DNA from: Methylomonas sp. LL1
GTDB taxonomy: Bacteria > Pseudomonadota > Gammaproteobacteria > Methylococcales > Methylomonadaceae
Length of the DNA: 64,000 nucleotides
Direction of reading: 5' to 3'
Assembly (NCBI RefSeq): GCF_015711015.1
Contig: NZ_CP064653.1
Location: forward strand, 4,526,001 to 4,590,000
The stretch's first letter is position 1. Each line of letters opens with the position of its first letter. Of this stretch, positions 5,852-29,078 are shown in pieces. The notes below the pieces were generated by a model. The model had not been told where the DNA came from, ran no database searches, and saw only the letters and a list, made by a program, of their open reading frames with translations. Position numbers and translations under genes: made by a program.

Positions 5852-6547
5852 GTGAGTATGGTTATCATGGGGATTAATGCCGTGTGGCATCGTATCGGGC
5901 TGATGGTTGTTTTGTTGATTGGTTTTAGCGGTTGTTCGCAGCCGTTATTAGAGGATGTGCGGCAAGCTTCTGATTACACCTATCGAATTGGGCCTGGCGA
6001 TAATGTCAATATTTTTGTTTGGGGCAACCCTGAGTTATCCACCTCGGCGGCAGTGCGTCCGGATGGCAAAATAACTGTACCCCTTGTCGAGGAATTGTTG
6101 GCCAGTGGTAAGACACCATTTCAATTGGCTAGGGATATCGAAAAAGTTTTATCAGTCTATGTGAAGAGTCCACAGGTTGTTGTGATGGTCTCTGGGTTTA
6201 AAGGCGTTAGAGATCAGCAAATTCGCATTATTGGTCGAATTGGCGGTGGTGGTGGCGGAGGTAGCGGCGGTGGTGGTAGCGGCGGTGGTAGCGGCGGCGG
6301 TGGCATAGGTCGCTATCAAGGAAAGTCCATACCGTATGAAAGAGGAATGACCTTGCTGGATGTGGTGATTCAAATCGGATTGAATCAATATGCCGATGGT
6401 AACAGGGCTAGTGTTATTCGTGATGTCGATGGAGATTTAAAGTCATATCGGGTGCGCATTGATGATTTAATAGATGATGCGGATTTGTCCGCAAACGTGC
6501 TGATGATGCCCGGCGATATCTTGATTATTCCAGATGCTTATTTTTAA
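5852..6547 (+). CDS. XrtA-type polysaccharide export lipoprotein (Wza/EpsE-like) with Gly/Ser insertion
   Basis: A 231-residue OMA-family protein: signal peptide ending in the lipobox 'GFSGC' (Cys about 28), a Poly_export domain ('YRIGPGDNVNIFVWGNPELS', about residues 44-110) and an SLBB-like domain ('MTLLDVVIQIG ... MMPGDILIIPD'). It should form the outer-membrane exit of the polysaccharide machine with the chain-length protein downstream. Residues 131-151 are only Gly and Ser (bases 6242-6304), inserted where homologues go straight from the 'IRIIG' strand into the next SLBB segment. The start is GTG 5852 with AGGA four bases upstream; ATG 5858 is also possible. Confidence 0.9.
   Translation: MSMVIMGINAVWHRIGLMVVLLIGFSGCSQPLLEDVRQASDYTYRIGPGDNVNIFVWGNPELSTSAAVRPDGKITVPLVEELLASGKTPFQLARDIEKVLSVYVKSPQVVVMVSGFKGVRDQQIRIIGRIGGGGGGGSGGGGSGGGSGGGGIGRYQGKSIPYERGMTLLDVVIQIGLNQYADGNRASVIRDVDGDLKSYRVRIDDLIDDADLSANVLMMPGDILIIPDAYF
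6242..6304 (+). repeat. GGT/GGC/AGC codon repeat encoding a Gly-Ser linker
   Basis: Sixty-three bases made almost only of GGT, GGC and AGC codons inside the export lipoprotein gene. The unit GGTAGCGGCGGTGGT recurs with small variations and the whole run is a multiple of three. It encodes 18 glycines and 3 serines. Such tracts arise and change length by replication slippage, so copy number may vary between strains. The reading frame stays open on both sides. Confidence 0.85.
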
Positions 6548-17094: not shown

Positions 17095-18987
17095 ATGTGC
17101 GGCATAGTCGGTATTTTTGATATTCATGGCAAAACCGAAATAGACCGCGATTTGCTGTCGCGGATGAACGAATCGCAATTCCATCGCGGTCCGGATGAAG
17201 GCGGTTTGCATACCGAGTCCGGCTTGGGGTTTGGACACCGGCGTTTGTCGATTATCGATTTATCCAGCGGCCAACAGCCGATGCACAGCCAGGATGGCAA
17301 TGTGGTGCTGACCTATAACGGCGAAGTCTATAATTTCCCCGAGTTGCGGGAAGAGTTACAAACTTTGGGTTACCACTTCCGAACCCACTGCGATACCGAA
17401 GTCATCCTATACGCCTGGCAGGCCTGGGGCGAAGCATGTGTAGACAGATTGCGCGGCATGTTTGCCTTTGCGATTTGGGACCGCGCGCAACAAGTTCTGT
17501 TTCTGGCCCGCGACCGCTTGGGCATCAAACCCTTGTTTTATACGCAATTGCCGAACGGCCAATTTATTTTCGGTTCCGAACTCAAGGCTCTGAACCTGCA
17601 TCCGCTATTACCCAAAACCATCGAGCCAACGGCAATTGAAGATTATTTTGGCTTTGGTTACATCCCCGACCCGAAAACTATTTACCAAGGTGTATATAAA
17701 CTGGAGCCAGGTTATTGCTTAAGCATTAAACGAGGGCAGCAATCCTGGAAGCCACGGCAATATTGGGATGTAAAGTTCGACTCATCGCAAAATCGCGGTG
17801 TCGATGAAGCCGGACAGGAATTGATCGAGCGTTTGCGGGAGGCGGTCAAAATCCGGATGGTAGCGGATGTGCCGCTCGGGGCCTTTTTGTCGGGCGGCGT
17901 CGATTCCAGTGCCGTGGTCGCGTTGATGGCGGGCTTGTCGCCCGATCCGGTCAATACGTGCTCGATTTCTTTTGGCGATCCGAAATTTAACGAATCCCAA
18001 TTCGCGGCCCAAGTGGCGGAGCGCTACCATACCGCGCATCGGGTAGAGCAGGTCGATCCGGACGATTTTAGCTTGATTGATCAATTATCCGGTTTATATG
18101 ACGAACCCTATGCCGATAGCTCTGCCTTGCCGACCTATCGGGTATGTGAGCTAGCCAAGAAACAGGTTACCGTGGTGTTGTCCGGCGATGGTGGTGATGA
18201 AAATCTGGCGGGTTATCGGCGGCATCGCTGGCATACCTATGAAGACAGAATGCGCGCTTTGTTGCCGGATGCCGTGCGAGTACCGCTGTTTTCCACATTG
18301 GGGCGTATTTATCCCAAGCTGGATTGGGCGCCGAAGGTTCTGCGGGCTAAATCGACATTGGAATCCATCGGTCGCGATTCGATGGCCGGCTATTTTCATA
18401 GTGTTTCGGTGATGTCCAATGAAATGCGCAATCAGTTATTCAGCGCTCAGTTAAAAAGCCAATTGCAGGGTTATCAAGCCATCGAAGTCTTTCGACGATA
18501 TCGTGATCAAGCCCCGGAGCATCCATTGTCCATGGTGCAATATTTGGACTTGAAAACCTATTTGCCAGGCGATATTCTGACCAAAGTCGACCGGGCCAGC
18601 ATGGCGCACGCGCTGGAAGTTCGGGTGCCGCTACTCGATCATAAATTAGTGGAATGGATGGCGACTTTGGCGCCTGACTTGAAGCTGAATGGTCGCGAAG
18701 GCAAATATCTGTTTAAAAAATCGTTGGAAGTCTATTTGCCCAACGATATTCTTTATCGGCCGAAAATGGGCTTTTCCGTGCCGCTCGCTAGTTGGTTCAG
18801 AGGGCCGTTAAAACAACGTGTACAACAGGCATTATTAGGCGATACACTGCGAAAAACCGGCTGGTTCGATGACGCATTTTTACAACATATTGTTACCCAG
18901 CATCAGGCCGGGTTAAGAGATTACAGTGCGCCTATCTGGTCACTGCTGATGTTTGAAGCATTTTTGAGAAACAACCTTGGTCAATAA
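17095..18987 (+). CDS. XrtA/PEP-CTERM system amidotransferase (asparagine-synthase-like)
   Basis: A 630-residue class II glutamine amidotransferase: catalytic Cys2 in 'MCGIVGIFD', glutaminase motifs 'HRGPDEGG', 'LTYNGEVYNF' and 'CDTEVILYAW', then the ATP-pyrophosphatase domain with 'GAFLSGGVDSSAVVALM' and 'VVLSGDGGDENLAGYRRH'. Both halves are intact, unlike the paralogue at 25902. It is the standard AsnB-like gene of exosortase-A loci, likely amidating a carboxyl group on the polymer or on a protein. It lies 21 bases after the glycosyltransferase with an AGAGA-type ribosome site, and ends the conserved core of the cluster. Confidence 0.92.
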   Translation: MCGIVGIFDIHGKTEIDRDLLSRMNESQFHRGPDEGGLHTESGLGFGHRRLSIIDLSSGQQPMHSQDGNVVLTYNGEVYNFPELREELQTLGYHFRTHCDTEVILYAWQAWGEACVDRLRGMFAFAIWDRAQQVLFLARDRLGIKPLFYTQLPNGQFIFGSELKALNLHPLLPKTIEPTAIEDYFGFGYIPDPKTIYQGVYKLEPGYCLSIKRGQQSWKPRQYWDVKFDSSQNRGVDEAGQELIERLREAVKIRMVADVPLGAFLSGGVDSSAVVALMAGLSPDPVNTCSISFGDPKFNESQFAAQVAERYHTAHRVEQVDPDDFSLIDQLSGLYDEPYADSSALPTYRVCELAKKQVTVVLSGDGGDENLAGYRRHRWHTYEDRMRALLPDAVRVPLFSTLGRIYPKLDWAPKVLRAKSTLESIGRDSMAGYFHSVSVMSNEMRNQLFSAQLKSQLQGYQAIEVFRRYRDQAPEHPLSMVQYLDLKTYLPGDILTKVDRASMAHALEVRVPLLDHKLVEWMATLAPDLKLNGREGKYLFKKSLEVYLPNDILYRPKMGFSVPLASWFRGPLKQRVQQALLGDTLRKTGWFDDAFLQHIVTQHQAGLRDYSAPIWSLLMFEAFLRNNLGQ

Positions 18988-19031
18988 GTGTTTTAGGTGA
19001 GTAATCTGTACAACGGTGCAATAGACAGGCA

Positions 19032-19060
19032 TTGAGTGTTTTGCTAGAGTGTGACATAGT
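19032..19060 (+). promoter_or_regulatory. Candidate sigma-70 promoter before the PqqD/HprK module
   Basis: TTGAGT at 19032-19037 and CATAGT at 19055-19060 are separated by 17 bases, the ideal spacing, in the only sizeable gap (99 bases) between the amidotransferase and the next gene. The -35 is 5/6 and the -10 is 4/6 to consensus. If used, it would give the 19087-22076 module its own transcription start. Sequence match only. Confidence 0.35.
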
Positions 19061-19086
19061 TCAAATTTTATTAAAGGCGATTCGAT

Positions 19087-19788
19087 ATGAGTGCGGAAAA
19101 TAAGAAAGTAGTCAGGCCGGACGAAAGCCGAAATTCTAACCTAGCGGTTGATAAATCACGGCGCTCGTTTTCTAAAGCAGGTGTAGTGGCACCGGTTATC
19201 ATGACATTGACCAGCAAAACCGCCTTGGGAGGTGTTTATCAATGTACTATTTCCGGGATACAGTCAGGCAATCAGTCAAGCCACCCCGGCGACTACGATT
19301 GTGGCGTGGGCTTTTCGCCGGGTGGTTGGCGGCAAAATGCAGTCAAAACAGGCAACCAGGACGGCAATCTCAATCAATGGTGCTTGGCCAGCGTTAATCC
19401 CTTTACCATTAGACGGATAAGAATAAATGGCTCGTACGTTAAACAAGTCTCCTATAAAGGCGAATGGAAGTCGGGGGGGGACTGGACTGAAATATACAAT
19501 ACTATAAAGACTAAATTCGGTTCTGGGGCGTTAGCGACAACCTTTCAGTTTATATTTGGTAGCAGCAGCTTCGGCGATACGTCTATGTGGGATATGCTCG
19601 ACAAATATGATGGTAGTTTGGAGTTTCATGCGATTGCCGACTATCTTAACGCGGCATTAAATCAAGCGACAGGCGCATTTAATCCTGTCTATGAAGATAT
19701 TACTCCCGCGTATATTGTCAGCATATACAATAGTACGACTCTATCGGCCACACAGAAAAAAGAATATTTCGAGCTTATTCATCATTGA
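19087..19788 (+). CDS. Tat-signal hypothetical protein, candidate substrate of the PqqD/HprK module
   Basis: A 233-residue protein of unknown function. Near residue 24 it carries 'SRRSFSKAG', a good twin-arginine motif, followed by a weakly hydrophobic stretch 'VVAPVIMTLTSKTALG', so it is probably exported folded. The mature part is rich in Gly, Ser, Asn, Tyr and Thr with three Cys in the first half (YQC, YDC, QWC) and no domain I recognise. AAAGGCG precedes the start. It sits 30 bases before a PqqD-like gene, where a modified precursor would be expected. A role as the substrate of the downstream kinase and nucleotidyltransferase is inference from position; it could equally be a matrix protein. 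Confidence 0.6.
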   Translation: MSAENKKVVRPDESRNSNLAVDKSRRSFSKAGVVAPVIMTLTSKTALGGVYQCTISGIQSGNQSSHPGDYDCGVGFSPGGWRQNAVKTGNQDGNLNQWCLASVNPFTIRRIRINGSYVKQVSYKGEWKSGGDWTEIYNTIKTKFGSGALATTFQFIFGSSSFGDTSMWDMLDKYDGSLEFHAIADYLNAALNQATGAFNPVYEDITPAYIVSIYNSTTLSATQKKEYFELIHH

Positions 19789-19818
19789 TAAGCCTAATTT
19801 ATGAATTATTGAAAGGAT

Positions 19819-20088
19819 ATGGCGGCTTCATTATACCGGCCGTTTACCAAGTTCGATGTTGAGGTCTGTTTAATCGATCGGGAATGGTTGTTGTACCATA
19901 CAGGGACCGGGCAAACGCATCGTTTAAACGGTGTTGTCGCGGATGTTTTTAATCAGGTGCGGATTGCGGCTAGCCCGGTTGATGTCGAGAGTTTGAAGTT
20001 AACAATGTCCGGCTTAATAGAAACTGACGAAATAATGAGGATTCTGGAATCTTTATTAGCCTTATATCTGATCGAAAGTGTCGTTTAG
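19819..20088 (+). CDS. PqqD-family peptide chaperone (HPr-rel-A system type)
   Basis: An 89-residue protein with the PqqD winged-helix layout: 'WLLYHTGTGQTHRLNGVVADVF' (two strands and the helix containing the family's L-N) and a C-terminal helix-strand 'IMRILESLLALYLIESVV'. PqqD-like domains bind leader peptides of ribosomally made, modified peptides. 'GAAAGGAT' gives a good ribosome site. The next gene starts inside its last codons (GTG 20078). The PqqD / HprK-like / nucleotidyltransferase trio is a conserved set in exosortase-bearing genomes. Confidence 0.75.
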   Translation: MAASLYRPFTKFDVEVCLIDREWLLYHTGTGQTHRLNGVVADVFNQVRIAASPVDVESLKLTMSGLIETDEIMRILESLLALYLIESVV

Positions 20089-20995
20089 TTTGGCAGTCTC
20101 AAATTTTACAAAAGACAAAAGCTCGGCTTTTGTACTTCGGATTGGGCCTTTTAGCGTTCGAGTGGATTCGGAGATTGAATCGGTTCAAAAGGGGATTAGT
20201 CAGTTATATTCGGATTATCCAAGACTAACCCCCAATGTCTTTTGCGATTTTTACGTCAGAGTGTTTCCCCCTTCCGGGCTAAGGCGGTTTTTTCGAAAAC
20301 AAGTGTTGTTTGCTTTCGATCAGTTTGTACCGTTCAAACCCTTGCCTTATGCACAAGCCTTCCCGTTTTTTGAATGGGGGCTTAATTGGTGCATATCCGG
20401 TTATTCACATCAATTTTTAATTATTCATGCCGCTGTCGTTGAAAAGCACGGTAATGCCCTGATTTTGCCAGGTACTCCCGGTTCCGGAAAAAGTACTTTG
20501 TGTGCCGCTTTGATCAATAAAGGTTGGCGATTGTTGTCTGACGAGTTAACGCTGATAGATTGTCAGACTGGACTCATTACGCCCGTGCCGCGTCCTGTCA
20601 GTTTGAAAAATCAATCGATAGAGTTGATTGCCAATGCTTTTCCCCATAATCAGTTTAGTTCCGTTGTACACGATACCTTGAAAGGCTCGGTTACCCTGAT
20701 GAAACCGCCGGCAGAGTCGATCTCAAGGGCCGATGAAATTGCGGCGCCTTGTCTGGTGGTCTTTCCCAAATTCCAGCACCAGTCCAGCTTAAATTTGACA
20801 GCATTACCTAAAGCGGAAGCCTTCATGAAGTTGGCGGACTTATCTTTTAATTACAGCGTATTGGGAGCGGAAGGCTTCTCTCTGTTGGCTGACTTGGTTG
20901 AAAGATGCCGTGTTTATGATTTTGTTTACGACGGAAATTTCGATCAAGCATCGGATTGTTTTGAACAATTACTGGGCGATTTTGGGCGTGGGTAA
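20078..20995 (+). CDS. HprK-related kinase A
   Basis: A 305-residue protein related to the C-terminal domain of HPr Ser kinase: 'IIHAAVVEKHGNALILPGTPGSGKSTLCAAL' region with the Walker A loop G-T-P-G-S-G-K-S-T at about residues 131-140, then 'WRLLSDELTLID' (Walker B-like) and 'RPVSLKNQS'. HprK homologues in lasso-peptide clusters phosphorylate the precursor's C-terminal Ser; here the target is unknown. It overlaps the PqqD gene by 11 bases and the nucleotidyltransferase by 8, so the three are translationally coupled. GTG start; no alternative ATG is near. Confidence 0.82.
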   Translation: MSFSLAVSNFTKDKSSAFVLRIGPFSVRVDSEIESVQKGISQLYSDYPRLTPNVFCDFYVRVFPPSGLRRFFRKQVLFAFDQFVPFKPLPYAQAFPFFEWGLNWCISGYSHQFLIIHAAVVEKHGNALILPGTPGSGKSTLCAALINKGWRLLSDELTLIDCQTGLITPVPRPVSLKNQSIELIANAFPHNQFSSVVHDTLKGSVTLMKPPAESISRADEIAAPCLVVFPKFQHQSSLNLTALPKAEAFMKLADLSFNYSVLGAEGFSLLADLVERCRVYDFVYDGNFDQASDCFEQLLGDFGRG

Positions 20996-22076
20996 TATTC
21001 CATCGAAATTACTGGTTAACCAGTTGATAGTTTATAAAAATACTATCCAGCTTTCAGATGAGGAATGGGAGTTACTGCTACGACAGGCGCGAGCCGCCGG
21101 AGTTATATCAAGGTTGGCTTTTTTTTGGAAAGAGTTTGGTTTATTGGCGCCGCCGAACTTTGTGGCGCCCCATCTTAACTCCGCCTATAAATACTGGATG
21201 TCGCAAAAACGCCTTGTTAACTGGGAACTCTACAACCTACAGCAGATATTTGAACAGTTACAACTTCCCTTGATCTTGCTCAAAGGCACTGCCTATTTAG
21301 CGGCGAATTTGAATGCCGGGTTGGGCCGGGTATTCAGTGATATAGATATCCTTGTGCCTAAGCATCGGTTACAAGATGTCAAAGAACGCCTGAAGTGGCA
21401 TGGTTGGTATCCGGAAAAAATGGACGGCTATGATCGTAGATACTATGAGCGTTGGATGCACGAATTGCCTCCGATGCGGCATGTTCAGCGCGGTACGACC
21501 TTAGATGTTCACCATAACATTCTCCCTGAAACCTGCACCTTATGCCCCGAAGCTGAACTGCTGCTGAAAGCGGCGGTTAAAATTCCAGGTAGTGATTGTT
21601 GGGTTTTAGCGCCTGAGGATATGATTTTGCATAGCGCCAGCCACTTGTTTTGGGGCGGTGAATTTGACAACGGATTACGTGATTTGAGTGACATGGATTT
21701 GTTATTGCGCGAATTTAGCCGTAACGATATGGGGTTTTGGCAAAAGCTTTTAGGTCGAGCCAATGTGTTGGGTATGGCTAGGCCGTTATTCTATGCCTTG
21801 CGATATAGCGTCAAAATGTTGCACACTCCGGTACCTGACGCAGTGTTGCAAAACCCTGCGCTTACGGTATCTGGTGGTTTTAAAAACCGGGTTATGGACA
21901 TGTTATTTATTCCGGCGTTGATGCCAATCCATCCGAGCTGCAGCGATCGCTGGACCGGTTTCGCTCGCTGGTTGTTGTACATTCGCTCCCATTGGTTGAA
22001 AATGCCGTGGTATTTGTTAATCCTGCATTTATCCAGAAAGGCCTGGATGCGATTGACAGGGAAAGAACAACACTAA
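20988..22076 (+). CDS. Nucleotidyltransferase family protein (NTP_transf_5 type)
   Basis: A 362-residue protein whose core 'LPLILLKGTAYLAANLNAGLGRVFSDIDILV' (about residues 93-123) is the signature of this nucleotidyltransferase family, with the S-D-x-D metal-binding pair. 'LDVHHNILPET' supplies a further conserved Asp/His region. Homologues accompany HprK-like kinases in lasso-peptide and exosortase loci and may add a nucleotide to the phosphorylated product. I chose GTG 20988, overlapping the kinase stop; the frame extends upstream only through TTG 20898 within the kinase gene. 47 bases without a hairpin separate it from the next glycosyltransferase. Confidence 0.8.
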   Translation: MGNIPSKLLVNQLIVYKNTIQLSDEEWELLLRQARAAGVISRLAFFWKEFGLLAPPNFVAPHLNSAYKYWMSQKRLVNWELYNLQQIFEQLQLPLILLKGTAYLAANLNAGLGRVFSDIDILVPKHRLQDVKERLKWHGWYPEKMDGYDRRYYERWMHELPPMRHVQRGTTLDVHHNILPETCTLCPEAELLLKAAVKIPGSDCWVLAPEDMILHSASHLFWGGEFDNGLRDLSDMDLLLREFSRNDMGFWQKLLGRANVLGMARPLFYALRYSVKMLHTPVPDAVLQNPALTVSGGFKNRVMDMLFIPALMPIHPSCSDRWTGFARWLLYIRSHWLKMPWYLLILHLSRKAWMRLTGKEQH

Positions 22077-22123
22077 CGGGCTGAAAATCGATAACCAGTC
22101 AAAATTTCATATCACTCCAATTC

Positions 22124-23335
22124 ATGAAAATACTGCATATTCTCGACCACTCGATTCCCTTGCATAGTGGCTATACCTTCCGTACACGCGCTATTCTGGA
22201 AGAGCAACGTAAGCTGGGTTGGGAAACTTTTCATGTCACTTCCGCCAAGCATGTCGGAGCTAGAGCGGAGGTTGAAACCGTTGATGGATTGACTTTTTAT
22301 CGCTCGGCGGAATCTGATGGGTTTTTTTCAAGGCTGCCGGTCCTCAACCAATGGGCCATTGTGCAAAGTTTGGAAAAGCGCCTGGATGAAATCATCCCGC
22401 AAATCAAGCCCGATGTGCTGCATGCGCATTCGCCGGCTCTGAATGGTCTGGCGGCTTTGAAAATGGCTAAAAAATATAATATTCCATTGGTCTACGAGTG
22501 CCGGGCTTTTTGGGAGGATGCTGCGGTCGATCATGGTACGACGCAGGAAGGCAGTTTGCGTTATCGAATCACCAAAGCCCTGGAAACTCATGTTTTCAAA
22601 CAGGCAGACGCGGTGACAACGATTTGCGAGGGCTTACGCAAGGACATCATAAGCCGAGGCCTGGCCGCGGAGAAAATTACCGTGATTCCCAATGCGGTCG
22701 ACATCGACAAGTTCAGTTTCGGCGAAAGCGCCGATCCCGATTTGGCGCGGCAATTGAAACTGGCTGGTAACACCGTGCTGGGATTCATCGGTTCCTTCTA
22801 TGCCTATGAAGGCTTGCTATTGTTACTGGATGCTCTGCCCGAGATTATTAAACAGCAGCCCAATGTTCGCTTGCTGTTGGTCGGCGGCGGGCCGCAACAA
22901 CAGGCAATCAACGATAAAATTGCCGCGCTGAGTTTGCACCAGCATGTGATTCAGGTTGGGCGTGTTCACCACGATCAGGTCCAGCGTTATTACAACTTGG
23001 TGGATATATTCGTGTATCCGCGTTTGTCGATGCGTCTGACCGATCTGGTGACGCCGTTGAAACCCCTGGAAGCCATGGCGCAAGGGCGGTTATTGGTGGC
23101 ATCCGACGTTGGCGGCCATCACGAACTGATTCGCGACCGGGAAACCGGTTATCTTTTCAAGGCCGGCGATCCAACCGCGTTGGCGCAAACCGTGTTGGAA
23201 GCATTGGCCGATCAACACAACTGGGACGAGATACGCCATGCCGGACGGCACTATGTGGAAGATGAGCGTAATTGGCGGCGGAGTGTGGCCAATTACCAGG
23301 CCGTGTATGCCAACGCGGTTAATGCCAAGAAATGA
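22124..23335 (+). CDS. Exosortase A-associated glycosyltransferase (TIGR04063-type)
   Basis: A 403-residue GT4 enzyme. 'MKILHILDHSIPLHSGYTFRT' is the characteristic N-terminus of the exosortase-linked family, and the C-terminal domain has 'TVIPNAVDIDKFSF', 'LGFIGSFYAYEGLLLLLDAL', 'LLVGGGPQ' and 'VYPRLSMRLTDLVTPLKPLEAMA'. It transfers a sugar in building the repeat unit. The stop overlaps the next start (ATGA), beginning a tightly packed four-gene run to 27686. Confidence 0.88.
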   Translation: MKILHILDHSIPLHSGYTFRTRAILEEQRKLGWETFHVTSAKHVGARAEVETVDGLTFYRSAESDGFFSRLPVLNQWAIVQSLEKRLDEIIPQIKPDVLHAHSPALNGLAALKMAKKYNIPLVYECRAFWEDAAVDHGTTQEGSLRYRITKALETHVFKQADAVTTICEGLRKDIISRGLAAEKITVIPNAVDIDKFSFGESADPDLARQLKLAGNTVLGFIGSFYAYEGLLLLLDALPEIIKQQPNVRLLLVGGGPQQQAINDKIAALSLHQHVIQVGRVHHDQVQRYYNLVDIFVYPRLSMRLTDLVTPLKPLEAMAQGRLLVASDVGGHHELIRDRETGYLFKAGDPTALAQTVLEALADQHNWDEIRHAGRHYVEDERNWRRSVANYQAVYANAVNAKK

Positions 23336-24537
23336 CCGACAAAACACCCAGGCTGCTAGTATTTTGCTCGTTGTATCCGAGCCAGGTCAGGGCCAATGCC
23401 GGCTTATTCATTCGCGAACGCATGAGCCGAGTCGCGGAGCATAGCCCCTTGGTCGTGGTGTCGCCGGTGCCCTGGTTTCCGCTGCAAGGCCTGGTGCGCC
23501 TTTTCAAGCCCGGCTATCGCCCGCAACCGGCGAGTTACGAGCAGCAAAACGGTATTGATGTGTATTTTCCCCGTTTTCTGGCTATACCTGGCCTGTTTCG
23601 CACCTTGGATGGGTTTTTGATGGCCGTTGGAGCCTTACCGCTGTTGTTCAGGTTAAAAAAAGACTTTGCTTATAATCTGATCGATGCACATTTTGCCTAT
23701 CCCGATGGCTATGCGGCTACCTGGTTGGGCTGTTGGTTCAGGGTGCCAGTGACGATAACTTTACGTGGCACGGAAGTCCCGTTGTCTAAAATCCCCGGCC
23801 GTCGAGAGCGATTGTTGAAAGCCCTGCAGCGTGCGGCAAGAATATTTTCGGTGTCGGAATCGTTGAAACGACATGTGGTTGAACTGGGCGCCGATTCCGA
23901 AAAGATTGCGGTGATCGGCAATGGCGTCGATACGACGAAATTCTTTGCTATCGATAAATCCGAAGCACGTCGCCGACTGCAACTTGCCGAAGACGCACAG
24001 GTATTAATCTCGGTGGGCGGTTTGGTCGATAGAAAGGGGTTTCATCGTGTCATCGAAATACTGCCCGGTTTGTTGGAAAAACATCCAAAATTAGTTTATT
24101 TGATCGTAGGTGGCGCCAGTCCCGAAGGAAACAATCGCGCCAAATTGGAACAGTTGGTCGAATCGCTCGGCTTGAGGCAACAGGTGCGCTTTTTAGGTGC
24201 AATGGCTTCCGAGGATTTGCATGTTCCATTGTCGGCCGCCGACGTCTTCGTGTTGGCCACTGCAAATGAAGGTTGGGCCAATGTATTTTTGGAGGCAATG
24301 GCTTGTGGATTGCCGGTGGTAACCACCGATGTCGGCGGCAATCGTGAGGTGGTATCCAATTCGACGCTGGGTACAATTGTGCCATTTGGCGATTCCGATG
24401 CGTTATCGCGAGCAACCGACGATGCCTTGAACCGAAATTGGAAGCGTCAAACGATCATGGCTTATGCGGCGGATAACGCCTGGGATAAACGGGTTGCGCT
24501 ATTGCTTGCGGAATTTAACAAATTGGTAAATCGATGA
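23332..24537 (+). CDS. Glycosyltransferase family 4 protein
   Basis: A 401-residue GT-B enzyme: N-terminal 'LLVFCSLYPSQVRANAGLFIRERM', mid 'DAHFAYPDGYAATWLG' and 'TLRGTEVP', then 'VIGNGVDTTKFF', 'LISVGGLVDRKGFHRVIE' and 'ATANEGWANVFLEAMACGLPVVTTDVGGNREVV'. The donor-binding E-x7-E is visible. It overlaps both neighbours by four bases and so belongs to the same translationally coupled set; sugar specificity cannot be read from the sequence. Confidence 0.88.
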   Translation: MTDKTPRLLVFCSLYPSQVRANAGLFIRERMSRVAEHSPLVVVSPVPWFPLQGLVRLFKPGYRPQPASYEQQNGIDVYFPRFLAIPGLFRTLDGFLMAVGALPLLFRLKKDFAYNLIDAHFAYPDGYAATWLGCWFRVPVTITLRGTEVPLSKIPGRRERLLKALQRAARIFSVSESLKRHVVELGADSEKIAVIGNGVDTTKFFAIDKSEARRRLQLAEDAQVLISVGGLVDRKGFHRVIEILPGLLEKHPKLVYLIVGGASPEGNNRAKLEQLVESLGLRQQVRFLGAMASEDLHVPLSAADVFVLATANEGWANVFLEAMACGLPVVTTDVGGNREVVSNSTLGTIVPFGDSDALSRATDDALNRNWKRQTIMAYAADNAWDKRVALLLAEFNKLVNR

Positions 24538-25886
24538 GTCTCTACACCTCTTTTTGCTCGGCAGTGATATTCCCTCTGCACGAAGCGCTAAAAAAACATA
24601 GCACGGTCAAGGTTCGCCGCGACATGGAGCAAAGCCAGTGGCTGAATCGCGATGAAATACGCCTATTACAGTTGAAAAAATTAAAGGCATTTCTGGCCGA
24701 TGTGCAAAGCCATGTGCCTTATTATAAAAATCTTTTTGGGCAAACTGGTTTCGATCCGGAGGCTATCGATAATCTGGAACAATTAGCCGATTTGCCCTTA
24801 CTAGCCAAATCGGAAATCCGGGCGCATTTGGCCGATATGAAGGCTGATGATGCTGTGGGATTATCGCGTTTTAATACCGGCGGCTCCAGCGGTGAGCCGT
24901 TAATTTTTTATATCGGGAATCTCCGGGTCAGCCATGACGTGGCCGCCAAATGGCGGGCGACGCGGTGGTGGGGTGTCGACATAGGCGATCCCGAAGCAGT
25001 CATTTGGGGTTCGCCGATCGAGCTTGGCGCGCAGGATAAAATCCGACTGTTGCGCGATAAATTGCTCAGAACCCATTTGATTCCGGCATTTGAAATGTCG
25101 CCGGAAAAGCTCGATGGTTTTATACGACAAATTCAACGCATTCGACCTAAGATGTTGTTCGGTTATCCGTCCGCCTTGGCGCATATTGCATCTCATGCCG
25201 AGAAAAATGGTATTGCGTTGGATAATCTCGGTATCAAGGTTGCCTTTGTTACATCCGAACGGCTGTACGACCATCAGCGGGAAAAAATCGAAAGTGTATT
25301 TGCTTGCCCTGTTGCCAACGGTTATGGCGGCCGTGACGCCGGGTTCATTGCCCATCAGTGTCCGCAAGGCGGAATGCATATCACGGCGGAGGACGTCATC
25401 GTCGAAATCGTCGATGCGCAAGGCCGGGTGTTGCCGGCGGGCGAATTGGGTGAAATTGTTGTGACCCATTTGGCTACCCGCGATTTTCCGTTCATTCGTT
25501 ACCGTACCGGTGATATGGGTATCTTGTCGGATAAGATCTGCGCTTGCGGCCGAGGCTTACCGTTGTTGGACGAAATTCAGGGGCGCACAACCGATTTTGT
25601 CGTGGCTCGGGATGGTACGGTGCTACACGGTTTGGCATTGATCTATGTGCTGCGCGATCTGGAAGGCGTCGATGCGTTTAAGATTATCCAGGACAGCCTG
25701 GATAAAACCACGGTACAGATTGTCAGGACCGATTGTTACCAAGCTTCTATAGCAGAGGAAAAAATTGTCGGCGAATTTAAAAAGCGGCTGGGCGCGGCGG
25801 TTAATATCGGCATCGAATACACCGATTTCATTGCCAAGGAACGATCCGGCAAATTCAGGTATGTAATCAGTCATGTCAGTCCATAA
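24534..25886 (+). CDS. Phenylacetate-CoA ligase/CapK-like adenylate-forming protein
   Basis: A 450-residue member of the PaaK/CapK adenylation family: 'DLPLLAKSEIRAHL' near the N-terminus, phosphate-binding loop 'FNTGGSSGEPLIFY' (about residues 113-126), 'NGYGGRDAGFIAHQC', and 'IRYRTGDMG' plus a C-terminal subdomain ending 'KERSGKFRYVIS'. Homologues are common in capsule and EPS clusters, where they probably activate a carboxylate for polymer decoration; the substrate is not known. It overlaps the glycosyltransferase stop by four bases. Confidence 0.82.
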   Translation: MSLYTSFCSAVIFPLHEALKKHSTVKVRRDMEQSQWLNRDEIRLLQLKKLKAFLADVQSHVPYYKNLFGQTGFDPEAIDNLEQLADLPLLAKSEIRAHLADMKADDAVGLSRFNTGGSSGEPLIFYIGNLRVSHDVAAKWRATRWWGVDIGDPEAVIWGSPIELGAQDKIRLLRDKLLRTHLIPAFEMSPEKLDGFIRQIQRIRPKMLFGYPSALAHIASHAEKNGIALDNLGIKVAFVTSERLYDHQREKIESVFACPVANGYGGRDAGFIAHQCPQGGMHITAEDVIVEIVDAQGRVLPAGELGEIVVTHLATRDFPFIRYRTGDMGILSDKICACGRGLPLLDEIQGRTTDFVVARDGTVLHGLALIYVLRDLEGVDAFKIIQDSLDKTTVQIVRTDCYQASIAEEKIVGEFKKRLGAAVNIGIEYTDFIAKERSGKFRYVISHVSP

Positions 25887-25901
25887 CTCACTAGAATAAC
25901 A

Positions 25902-27686
25902 ATGACACAATTTGCGGGATGGATTGGAGCAAACCTCCAAAATGATCAGGCGCTGGCTTTGCTCGGCACTATGACAGCTAATGACTCCCTGGAATGTCTG
26001 CATGGTCCAGGATATGCCGCCGCCGCACCGACCACGGCGATACAACAAGCTGATCAATGCCTACTGATAGTGGCGAAGCCTTGCCAGAATGTTCAGCACA
26101 TGCAACAGATATTGAGTGCTTATCGGCAACGCGGCAGCGAATTCCTGGATCGGCAGGCCGATCCTGTTGCTTTGGTAATGGTCGATGCCGAACGACAAAG
26201 CCTGATTCTGGCAACTGACCCGATTGGTCTGAGTAACCTGTATTACGCACAAACCGCAAATGGCATCGTGTTCGGCAGTCGCGCCGATTTCGTGGTGTGC
26301 CATCCTGATGTCAATGACGCGATTGCGCCACAAAGCATTTACGATTACGTTTATTTTCATCATTGCCCGAGTCCCAATACCATCTATCAACAGGTTAAAA
26401 AACTGGAGGGTGGGCAATGTTTAATTTATCAAAATGGTCAGGTAGTTGTTAAACGTTACTGGATGCCAACATTTCAGGAGCAAGTTTCGGGAAATTTGCA
26501 ACAGGCCGGCCGTGAATTGCGGGAACTCTTGATCGATACGGTTAGACGCAACGTCGATAGCGAAGACAATACCGGTGCCTTTCTGAGCGGAGGATTGGAT
26601 AGCTCCAGCGTTGCCGGCGCATTATCGAAAGTATTTCCCGATAAAGCTAAAACTTTTTCGATGGGTTTCCCGGTGGAGGGGTATAACGAAATCGAATACG
26701 CCAACATCGCCGTCAAACATTTTAATACTCGTCAGCACGAATATTATGTGACTCCGGAAGATACCGTCAACGCGGTGCCTTTGATCGCGGCATATTACGA
26801 CGAACCTTTCGGAAATTCTTCGGCGCTGGCGGCGTATTATTGCGCCAAGCTGGCCAAGGAAAACGGCATCAAACGGTTATTGGGTGGTGATGGTGGCGAC
26901 GAAATTTTTGCCGGTAACGAACGCTATGCCAAACAAATGCTATTCGAGCATTATCATCGTTTGCCGGGTTTTGTCAGTAGCGCCGTGGAAGCCGGTCTGA
27001 GTCGCTTGCCGCCCGTGCTGGCTCAACACAAGATTCCGTACAAAGCCAAGCGCTACATCGAACAAGCCAACGCCGCAATGCCGGACCGCTTGCAGGATTA
27101 CAATTTTCTGCACCGGCATGAGGGGGGGGATATTTTCCAGGCTGATTTCCTGGCCCGGATTGATACCGCTGAACCGTTACGTTTACTGAGGGAATGCTAT
27201 CAGCGGCCGGAAAATGCCAGTGTGTTGAACCGCATGCTATACATGGATTGGAAAACCACGCTGCACGACAATGATCTGGTCAAGGTCAACCGGATGTGCG
27301 AGATGGTCGGGGTCGAAGTCTGTTATCCATTGTTGGATCAGCGCATTGTTGATTTATCCTGCCGGATTCCTTCGGATAGCAAATTGAAAGGGCAAAAACT
27401 GCGCTGGTTTTACAAACAGGCTATGGCCGAATTTTTGCCGGAACAGATCATCAATAAACCCAAGCACGGCTTCGGTTTGCCGTTCGGTATTTGGCTAAAA
27501 GACCATCAACCCCTGAAGGAATTGGCCTATGATGCCATTCATGATTTAAAAAAACGTGAATATTTCAAGCCGGAGTTTCTCGATCATGTCGTCGACATGC
27601 ATCAAAGCATTCATGCAGCCTACTACGGTGAGTTGATCTGGATACTAATGATGCTGGAATTGTGGTTTGCCGGAAAAGGCCTCTGA
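25902..27686 (+). CDS. Asparagine-synthase-like protein lacking the glutaminase cysteine
   Basis: A 594-residue AsnB homologue. The ATP-pyrophosphatase half is intact ('GAFLSGGLDSSSVAGAL' about residues 225-241, 'LLGGDGGDEIFAGNERY', 'DLVKVNRMCEM'). The N-terminal half keeps the fold ('LILATDPIGLSNLYYA') but starts 'MTQFAGWIG' where active enzymes have MCGI; Cys2 is replaced by Thr. It should therefore be unable to use glutamine and may form an amide with another amine, as in lasso cyclases and beta-lactam synthetase, or use free ammonia. It follows the CapK-like gene by 15 bases and ends the EPS train. The paralogue at 17095 keeps the Cys. Confidence 0.88.
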   Translation: MTQFAGWIGANLQNDQALALLGTMTANDSLECLHGPGYAAAAPTTAIQQADQCLLIVAKPCQNVQHMQQILSAYRQRGSEFLDRQADPVALVMVDAERQSLILATDPIGLSNLYYAQTANGIVFGSRADFVVCHPDVNDAIAPQSIYDYVYFHHCPSPNTIYQQVKKLEGGQCLIYQNGQVVVKRYWMPTFQEQVSGNLQQAGRELRELLIDTVRRNVDSEDNTGAFLSGGLDSSSVAGALSKVFPDKAKTFSMGFPVEGYNEIEYANIAVKHFNTRQHEYYVTPEDTVNAVPLIAAYYDEPFGNSSALAAYYCAKLAKENGIKRLLGGDGGDEIFAGNERYAKQMLFEHYHRLPGFVSSAVEAGLSRLPPVLAQHKIPYKAKRYIEQANAAMPDRLQDYNFLHRHEGGDIFQADFLARIDTAEPLRLLRECYQRPENASVLNRMLYMDWKTTLHDNDLVKVNRMCEMVGVEVCYPLLDQRIVDLSCRIPSDSKLKGQKLRWFYKQAMAEFLPEQIINKPKHGFGLPFGIWLKDHQPLKELAYDAIHDLKKREYFKPEFLDHVVDMHQSIHAAYYGELIWILMMLELWFAGKGL

Positions 27687-27720
27687 AGATCGGCTTAGAT
27701 GGAGGACCGGCCAAAACCGA

Positions 27721-28146
27721 TCAGAAAGGCTTCAATACCGCTAGCCAGATGATCGCAAACAAAAGTAGCACCGGTATTTCGTTGATCCAGCGAAAATAGA
27801 TATGGCTATGCCGGTTGCGGTCATGTTTGAAATCCAGCAGCCATTTGCCGCAAAAACCGTGATAAACCGCCAGTAATGCTAGCAGTATTAGTTTGAGGTG
27901 TAGCCAGCCCGCCGCGGAATACAGGCTCCAGGCATAATCCTTTAACATCCAGAAGCCGAAAATAAAGGTGCAGAGCATGCCTGGGGTCATGATGCCGTAA
28001 TAGAGTTTGCGTTCCATCACTTTGAAGCGCTCGTGGCTGACGGCGTCGTCGCTCATCGCATGATAGACGTACAGTCTGGGCAAATAAAACAGACCGGCAA
28101 ACCATGTCACCATAAAAATCAAATGCAGTGCTTTCAACCAAAGCAT
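27721..28146 (-). CDS. hemJ: Protoporphyrinogen IX oxidase HemJ (CopD-like family)
   Basis: A 141-residue membrane protein with four hydrophobic segments. 'MLWLKALHLIFMVTWFAGLFYLPRLYVYH' and 'KVMERKLYYGIMTPGM' are the diagnostic HemJ motifs, including the His in the first membrane helix; the later 'LKLILLALLAVYHG' is also conserved. It oxidises protoporphyrinogen IX to protoporphyrin IX in haem synthesis. It is convergent with the EPS train (34 bases between stops) and divergent from the signalling operon at 28377. Confidence 0.88.
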   Translation of the reverse strand: MLWLKALHLIFMVTWFAGLFYLPRLYVYHAMSDDAVSHERFKVMERKLYYGIMTPGMLCTFIFGFWMLKDYAWSLYSAAGWLHLKLILLALLAVYHGFCGKWLLDFKHDRNRHSHIYFRWINEIPVLLLFAIIWLAVLKPF

Positions 28147-28246
28147 CTATTTCTCCGTTGATGTACGCCAAGAAAATTAACGTTTGATGGTATCGGCGAA
28201 ATGATCATAAATCGCATGTTAGTAAGCTTTGGTGTGATCCGATGAG

Positions 28247-28266
28247 TACGGTTTTTAAAAACCGTA
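28247..28266. promoter_or_regulatory. Perfect 20-base palindrome upstream of the GTPase/Roadblock operon
   Basis: The half-site TACGGTTTTT is followed directly by its exact reverse complement AAAAACCGTA with no spacer. It lies between divergent hemJ and the 28377 gene, 111 bases before the latter's start. The symmetry is perfect and suits a dimeric regulator. No regulator gene lies nearby, so operator function is inference. Confidence 0.45.
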
Positions 28267-28376
28267 AAATAGCTGTTGTTTTATGTGAATTGCGTCATAT
28301 CCTGCGGCCTGGCAAAAAACAGTTTTACGGAATGCTGCTATTCTTTCATCCAAATAATATACCGTGGAGGGATTTA

Positions 28377-29078
28377 ATGCCCCAATTTTCTTCAAAATTG
28401 CTTCTTGACGGATTGGCGGCTCCTTCTAGGGCAAACGGCTTTTGGGAAGATGATCTGCCGCTGTTTACTGATGAGCAACAACAATCCGATGCAACCCTCA
28501 AAATATTAACTTTTAAGGTCAGTAGGAATCCTAAAAACTTGCTGGCGCATCTGCGGCGCATTTATTTTTGCTATCAAAATCACCTGTCCGAACCTCTTTA
28601 CGCGAGTTTGCTTGATTTACTGATTACCTTGAATGGCAAGGGGCAGGCATTTTGCCAACGCTTAGTGCATGGTAGCCGTTCCAGGCTTGATCCAGCTCAA
28701 TTATCGACGCTCAAAAATGCTATACCCTATCCTCAACAAGCTTCGGCTAATCGATATTCACTGTTCACGCCAGGCATATTAGGTCGTCCCCAGTTGATCG
28801 AAATAAGACAGCAAGATCAGATACGGCACGATTTTTTAGCATTGGCCAACGATTTTATCGAATACAGCCAGCTTGAAGAAGCAATGACAATTTTGGAGCG
28901 TGGTCTCGGTGTTGATCCAACGCGGGAAGATTTGCAGTTCGCATTGTTGGAGTTATATAAATCGACCAAGAGTCGCGACCGTTTTAGAAATCAGTACCAG
29001 AGTCTTCAGGATGCCGGGGCTAGACTTGTAACGGATTGGCAATTGCTGGGGGATTATTTTGATGGAAATACGATATGA
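28377..29078 (+). CDS. Hypothetical protein with C-terminal TPR/FimV-like helical repeats
   Basis: A 233-residue soluble protein without recognised catalytic motifs. The C-terminal part 'FLALANDFIEYSQLEEAMTILERGLGVDPTREDLQFALLELYKSTK' region reads as two helical repeats of TPR/FimV-C type; the middle is helical with 'LLAHLRRIYFCYQNHLSEPLYASLLDLL'. ATG 28377 was chosen because GGAGGG (28366-28371) lies five bases upstream; a longer frame from 28242 crosses the palindrome and lacks a ribosome site. The stop overlaps the next start (ATGA). First gene of the GTPase/Roadblock operon, perhaps a scaffold. Confidence 0.65.
   Translation: MPQFSSKLLLDGLAAPSRANGFWEDDLPLFTDEQQQSDATLKILTFKVSRNPKNLLAHLRRIYFCYQNHLSEPLYASLLDLLITLNGKGQAFCQRLVHGSRSRLDPAQLSTLKNAIPYPQQASANRYSLFTPGILGRPQLIEIRQQDQIRHDFLALANDFIEYSQLEEAMTILERGLGVDPTREDLQFALLELYKSTKSRDRFRNQYQSLQDAGARLVTDWQLLGDYFDGNTI

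Follow-up and report, generated by a model that had tools for sequence, protein, structure and literature searches.

A conserved four-gene cassette in Methylomonas sp. LL1 as a candidate system for leader-guided phosphorylation of a folded protein

The region analyzed here (the window) is a stretch of 64,000 nucleotides from the 4.9 Mb genome of Methylomonas sp. LL1 (NZ_CP064653.1, positions 4,526,001 to 4,590,000; G000:C2:4526001-4590000 in our numbering). It carries four tightly packed plus-strand genes, here named by their first positions (19087, 19819, 20078, and 20898), between an XrtA-system amidotransferase gene (17095-18987) and two glycosyltransferase genes (22124 and 23332). The first (19087..19788) encodes a protein of 233 amino acids (aa) whose conserved leader is followed by a separate folded domain; we propose it as the substrate of the other three gene products. 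It is followed by a PqqD-type protein (19819..20088), predicted to be a recognition element (RRE) for ribosomally synthesized and post-translationally modified peptides (RiPPs); by an HprK-related kinase A (20078..20995), whose start overlaps the stop of the PqqD-like gene; and by an NTP_transf_5 nucleotidyltransferase (NTase) family protein (20898..22076). The NTase frame opens with TTG at 20898, but the more likely start is GTG at 20988, where the overlap with the kinase stop amounts to a few bases. The initial annotation had described the last three genes as an overlapping, coupled module; all three are confirmed in place, but that 19087 belongs with them as a fourth member had been missed.

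The composition of this cassette is strongly conserved. The comparison set comprised 36 other kinase loci, 10 from near relatives and 26 drawn from 274 genomes that sampled the class. In 27 of these genomes (the genome of the window counted in) the kinase is over the family cut-off; the nearest cassette loci belong to Methylobacter and Methylomonas. A PqqD-like gene adjoins the kinase at all 36 loci (31 identified by motif, 5 by profile), and the NTase lies within 2.4 kb of the kinase at 35, the contig of L063 ending first; at four loci (L057, L059, L064, and L066) the NTase gene is found upstream on the opposite strand. At 34 of the 36 loci, the PqqD gene is directly preceded by a gene whose product has a twin-arginine leader, and the contigs of the other two (L002 and L062) end first. 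The initial annotation had asked whether a 19087-type gene always co-occurs with the module and whether the module genes are found mostly apart; in the sense of the leader, such a gene is present at all 34 loci with enough upstream sequence, and the genes are found together. The co-occurrence is far beyond chance, and the constancy of the leader gene makes 19087 the candidate target.

No Pfam or NCBIfam family matches 19087, nor any of 12 scanned substrates of its type. Of its 37 homologues at E<=0.001, six (P0032-P0037) resemble it only in the leader part (26-36% of the query), as is seen in RiPP precursors. In the alignments (A1, A2, and A7), the leader covers residues 1-48 (19087..19230, plus strand), with S-R-R at residues 24-26, P36, and a small residue at position 48, where the leader would end. 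Substrates of class 1, found at 28 of the 34 loci with a leader gene, combine this leader with C-T/S-x-S-G-x-x-S-G-N-x-S or a close form behind it. Among the 29 class-1 sequences from these loci and the window, residue 48 is G or A in all, and R25-R26 is RR in 28, the sequence of L044 being aligned as K-R with its RR one residue on. Directly behind the leader of 19087 lies the motif S56-x3-S60-x-N62-x-S64 (19252..19278, plus strand). Conservation was counted in 182 sequences, comprising these 29, 36 near homologues, and 117 distant homologues, with six class-2 loci left out beforehand; the likeness of the distant homologues is partly due to selection, because they are the best 117 of the 498 that a profile of 12 substrates retrieved. 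S60 is a serine in all 182, S56 is conserved in 181 (T in L061), C53 in 181, and N62 and S64 in 174 each. AlphaFold2 predicts a flexible N-terminal part, with residues 29-48 of the leader at a predicted local distance difference test score (pLDDT) below 50 and the serine motif within a less certain stretch, followed by a confidently predicted domain from about residue 71 to 233 (19297..19785, plus strand; block means 84-98), for which no close match was found among solved folds. Most substrates are about 150-260 aa long with a folded domain, and one is 74 aa. Two other substrate forms were observed: at L057, L059, L064, and L066 the leader reads ...PAVMTLHSG... and is not followed by the serine motif, and at L130-L133 a third type, unlike class 1, lies upstream of HprK_rel_A, with the leader RRxLMLGAVGASAIVSIRPALAQ and then a shared core starting CEIPV.

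The specificity of the leader was examined with profiles. In the class-wide sample, a leader profile (A2, 21 rows) matched 28 of the 274 genomes, including 23 of the 27 with an over-cut-off kinase vs. 5 of the 247 others. Sixteen of these 23 had supplied rows to the model, and the seven held-out kinase genomes (G249, G021, G169, G052, G134, G057, and G091) were all matched at the cassette. In three of the five others, G184, G101 (two matches), and G167, the match lies beside a divergent HprK-like kinase under the family cut-off. A wider profile (A8, 27 rows) was run against 398 Pseudomonadota genomes, which shared only the genome of the window with the model. HprK-related kinase A was found over the cut-off in 61 of these genomes; A8 matched 37 in all, 30 of the 61 vs. 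7 of the 337 without the kinase (Fisher 1e-21), and 26 of the 37 matches have an HprK-like kinase within 3 kb. For the 31 kinase genomes without an A8 match, 20 loci were read by eye, and 17 have a leader gene upstream; a stricter automated motif found 11 of these 20. Over all loci, this motif marks a leader-like frame 350-1300 bases upstream of the kinase at 42 of 56, where 0.02 would be expected per stretch, a background taken from the rest of the loci for a motif that was written after the sequences had been seen.

The PqqD-like protein 19819 matches NCBIfam TIGR04353 (PqqD_rel_X) with 19.3 bits (E 0.0016), and all of its 28 aligned relatives match this model at E<=0.1, four of them matching a lasso PqqD model too. 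A profile of the 28 relatives, searched against the PDB, found the lasso RRE TbiB1 as best match (E 1.9e-4), followed by a winged-helix regulator and then by the lasso RRE TfuB1 (6.8e-3). The structure of 19819 was predicted with a pLDDT of 90.7, and the best Foldseek match of the model was TbiB1 with its leader (TM score 0.67, E about 1e-3), followed by the RREs of TruD, a sactipeptide maturase, and TfuB1. Thus 19819 is probably an RRE, and at the level of fold and profile matches it resembles the discrete RRE (B1) of lasso pathways.

The kinase 20078 is assigned to HprK_rel_A by TIGR04352 (373.8 bits, cut-off 200). Its residues H117, K138 of the P-loop, D155, and E156 are invariant in 30 of 30 aligned relatives and are comparable with the essential His-Lys-Asp-Asp residues reported for lasso kinases (PMC9266682), the fourth position being E here by alignment. 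In the open-licence literature searched, we found no paper that assigns a target to HprK-related kinase A. The 20898 frame matches PF14907 (NTP_transf_5; E 2.2e-47), as do 20 of 20 aligned relatives, in all of which D148, D150, H205, and H206 are conserved.

The gene set, the leader, the invariant serine, the family assignments, and the kinase residues can be read from the sequences themselves, and the reading that we favor, and consider fairly probable, builds on them by analogy with characterized systems. The predicted RRE 19819 would hold the leader of the 19087 protein while the kinase phosphorylates a serine shortly after it; since S60 never varies, this is the favored site. The NTase would then add a nucleotide or sugar onto the phosphate, and the protein would likely be exported, with removal of the leader, perhaps via the twin-arginine translocation (Tat) route. 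For the kinase the analogy is LppK of the linear polyphosphorylated peptides (LPPs), described in 2026 in Bacillota; according to the portions of that report drawn on here (PMC13381572), LppK phosphorylates the core S3 directly behind the RRE-bound leader, and an S3T variant is not phosphorylated. For the NTase it is PsmN, an annotated nucleotidyltransferase that is needed for the attachment of one or two hexoses to the phosphoserine of pseudomycoidin, as given in the portions of PMC9266682 drawn on here.

We read the cassette as a proteobacterial, protein-sized counterpart of the LPP phospho-RiPPs. In both, an HprK-like kinase, a discrete RRE, and an NTP transferase are encoded together; the precursors are conserved in the N-terminal leader and vary strongly at the C-terminus; and a serine lies directly behind the leader, phosphorylated in LPPs and represented here by the invariant S60. 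LPP clusters, too, are often within polysaccharide loci and need no cyclase. By contrast, LPPs are described as restricted to Bacillota, their precursors of 35-200 aa carry a YxxP leader, and their clusters have a dedicated SipW-like peptidase and MsbA-like exporter. The substrates of this Pseudomonadota cassette are mostly 150-260 aa long, with a folded domain and a twin-arginine leader. A scan of 10 genes from 17095 to 29075 found neither a peptidase nor an exporter of these kinds; elsewhere in the genome no search for them was made. Because the peptidase and exporter, the YxxP of the window leader, and the Bacillota host all differ, we file the cassette as a variant of RRE-guided phospho-modification rather than as an LPP system. 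The pathway, which the initial annotation had considered undescribed, is thus new in part only, as the closely similar LPPs were already on record.

A sister group of divergent loci encodes, beside HprK-like kinases that score 63-72 bits against TIGR04352, either short peptides of 57, 59, and 87 aa or a protein of 149 aa. The leader of this group reads S-R-R-x-F-I/V-K/R-K/A-x-A-Y-x-A-P-x-V/L-L/M-T-L, and short peptides in which a twin-arginine and YxxP leader precedes a conserved Gly-Ser are encoded at L096:4576-4749 and 6212-6391, where they flank the kinase, at L097:7446-7709, and at L099:5191-5418 (minus strand). An NTP_transf_5 gene is present at L098, and the RRE profile of the cassette finds an RRE adjoining the peptide at L097 and L098. 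No curated family was matched over its cut-off by the six short peptides scanned. Among 105 relatives from metagenomes (49-122 aa), Y-x-x-P-x-[LVIFAM] is present in all 105, a constancy of the tyrosine that is partly due to selection because the query profile had a tyrosine; RR is present in 98, and in 97 the proline is followed by Gly-Ser at a distance of 15 or 16 residues, the fixed serine being a weaker case of selection than the tyrosine. Lasso and LPP RREs recognize the form [Y/W]xxPx[L/V/I/F/A], and in YxxPxVLxHQxIxFETxxS, the LPP consensus, the serine that is phosphorylated follows the proline by 15 residues (PMC13381572). At the level of sequence, the sister group therefore links the twin-arginine leader to RRE recognition.

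Several observations weigh against RRE-guided phosphorylation by the cassette, or against its generality. About one substrate in six (class 2, at 6 of the 34 leader-gene loci: L047, L048, L057, L059, L064, and L066) departs from class 1, with the serine motif missing at five loci and kept in part only at L047 (SGMQS). The tyrosine of YxxP is gone in the window leader (V33-x-x-P36), and P36 is kept in 25 of the 29 class-1 sequences and 59 of the 117 distant homologues; a YxxP-like mode of binding is therefore hypothetical for the group of the window. The score of 19819 against TIGR04353 lies under the cut-off of 35, and neither an RRE nor an NTase was found at L096; the constant tyrosine of the short peptides is, as noted above, partly a matter of selection. 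The A2 matches in G036 and G232 have no adjoining HprK-like kinase, and 11 of the 37 A8 matches have no detected kinase nearby (in 6 the genome has the kinase but on a different contig, in 1 the distance is 20 kb, and 4 are in genomes without an over-cut-off kinase), while no leader gene was recognized by eye at 3 of the 20 profile-negative loci (L134, L136, and L148). Finally, LppN, in the account drawn on here, gave no detectable product or activity in a foreign host (PMC13381572), and the curated Tat profiles TIGR01409 and PF10518 match none of the 12 substrates at E<=1.

The last point bears on the export step, the weakest of the proposal, since the leader looks Tat-like (S/T-R-R-x-F/L with its twin arginine, then a hydrophobic stretch, and a small residue where the cut is presumed) but the Tat profiles do not recognize it. 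No cassette is among the TIGR01409 places listed for the 27 kinase genomes, and two of the six short peptides match this model weakly, below the cut-off. TatC is encoded in all 27 kinase genomes, which is uninformative because Tat is common. The same leader, with its small residue where a signal peptidase would cut, and the folded, cysteine-containing domain, which suits an exported protein, would also agree with 19087 being a Tat-exported matrix protein whose folding or export is merely chaperoned, with the PqqD-type protein guarding the signal peptide and the kinase and NTase regulating export or acting elsewhere. We regard this as unlikely, as it leaves the constant presence of the kinase and NTase and the invariant serines unexplained, and the failure of the Tat profiles counts against it as well.

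The RRE-guided phosphorylation that we favor shares its components with lasso peptide pathways, to which the initial annotation had likened the module. In paeninodin/pseudomycoidin-type lasso peptides, PadeK/PsmK phosphorylates a serine of the precursor (PMC9266682), and an RRE, an HprK-like kinase, and an NTP transferase occur in paeninodin-like clusters too (PMC13381572). Moreover, an AsnB-like protein (25902..27686, plus strand) is encoded 4 kb downstream, an arrangement kept in the Methylomonas-type loci L003-L008, and could be imagined as the cyclase of a lasso or other macrocyclizing RiPP pathway. As the initial annotation had noted, this protein is without the glutaminase Cys (its N-terminus is MTQFAG). 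A second AsnB protein with the Cys (MCGIVG), which went unmentioned there, is the amidotransferase directly upstream of 19087 (17095..18987, plus strand; TIGR03108, 1074.9 bits, cut-off 816.9). Both score far below the cut-off of 525 for the lasso macrolactam cyclase NF033535 (257 bits for 17095 and 156.5 bits for 25902), and, as far as the flanks reach, a 25902-type AsnB is found near the cassette at 7 of the 36 loci and a 17095-type AsnB at 8. The transglutaminase-like leader protease B2 (PF13471), which the initial annotation had not seen, has no match anywhere in this genome; 3 of 30 genomes have a match, none of them on the contig of the cassette. The cassette is not a lasso pathway, because B2 is absent and both AsnB proteins fall under the cyclase cut-off and are not conserved with the cassette. 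In addition, the paeninodin/pseudomycoidin type, as described in the source, involves a C-terminal serine, the B2 protease, a macrolactam cyclase, and a small threaded product, whereas the substrates here have a folded domain instead of a short core. Macrocyclization by 25902 is accordingly very improbable; what stands of the likeness is a RiPP-type modification with an HprK-like kinase, an NTP transferase, and a PqqD-type recognition protein.

Two curated systems are also related. The HPr-rel-A models of NCBIfam (TIGR04352 and TIGR04353) name the kinase and a 'peptide chaperone'; the kinase of the window is over the cut-off of the former, the PqqD protein matches the partner model below its cut-off, and no NCBIfam model covers the 12 scanned substrates. 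Of the SynChlorMet models, ScmC (TIGR04249) matches the kinase weakly (7.4e-8) and ScmD (TIGR04248) matches 2 of the 28 PqqD proteins weakly, both far below the cut-offs.

The window cassette lies within a gene cluster (17095-27686) that carries XrtA-associated exopolysaccharide (EPS) genes, the exosortase itself being outside the window: TIGR03109 matches the genome at two places, C2:2239652 and C2:3882318, each more than 0.6 Mb away from the window. XrtA (TIGR03109) is over the cut-off in 22 of the 27 kinase genomes vs. 29 of the 247 others (p 4e-14), and two kinase genomes (G052 and G057) have no exosortase match whatever. The cassettes of other Methylomonas (L003-L008) lie in the same EPS cluster as that of the window, and most of the other loci among the 36 have no gene like the EPS genes of the window adjoining the cassette. 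The link to the exosortase is therefore one of genome rather than neighborhood, so that the co-occurrence with XrtA loci that the initial annotation had proposed to check holds by genome, but most cassettes are not beside an XrtA-type EPS cluster. The location of the window cassette and the XrtA enrichment might suggest that the kinase and NTase act on EPS sugars or lipid-linked precursors, with the 19087 protein as a regulator or structural matrix protein. This seems quite unlikely to us, because at most loci the leader gene and the RRE-like gene are present where window-like EPS genes are not, and because an RRE together with a conserved leader implies a ribosomal peptide substrate.

The association of the cassette with exosortase genomes suggests a role for its product on the cell surface or within the matrix. 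A more speculative extension, which we hold only tentatively and think has a limited chance of being right, is that a phosphoserine-linked glycan ties the folded, exported protein to the exopolysaccharide matrix in a widespread proteobacterial pathway, with short-peptide and folded substrates sharing a leader that serves as both RRE handle and export signal. RRE-guided phosphorylation, if confirmed here, would extend beyond small Bacillota peptides to folded proteins in exosortase bacteria and would provide a possible route for joining protein to exopolysaccharide. The cassette gives HprK-related kinase A one candidate target with one favored serine, which is testable. The EPS cluster of the window also encodes a PaaK-like adenylating enzyme (24534-25886), which is under every NCBIfam cut-off and is kept at L003-L008.

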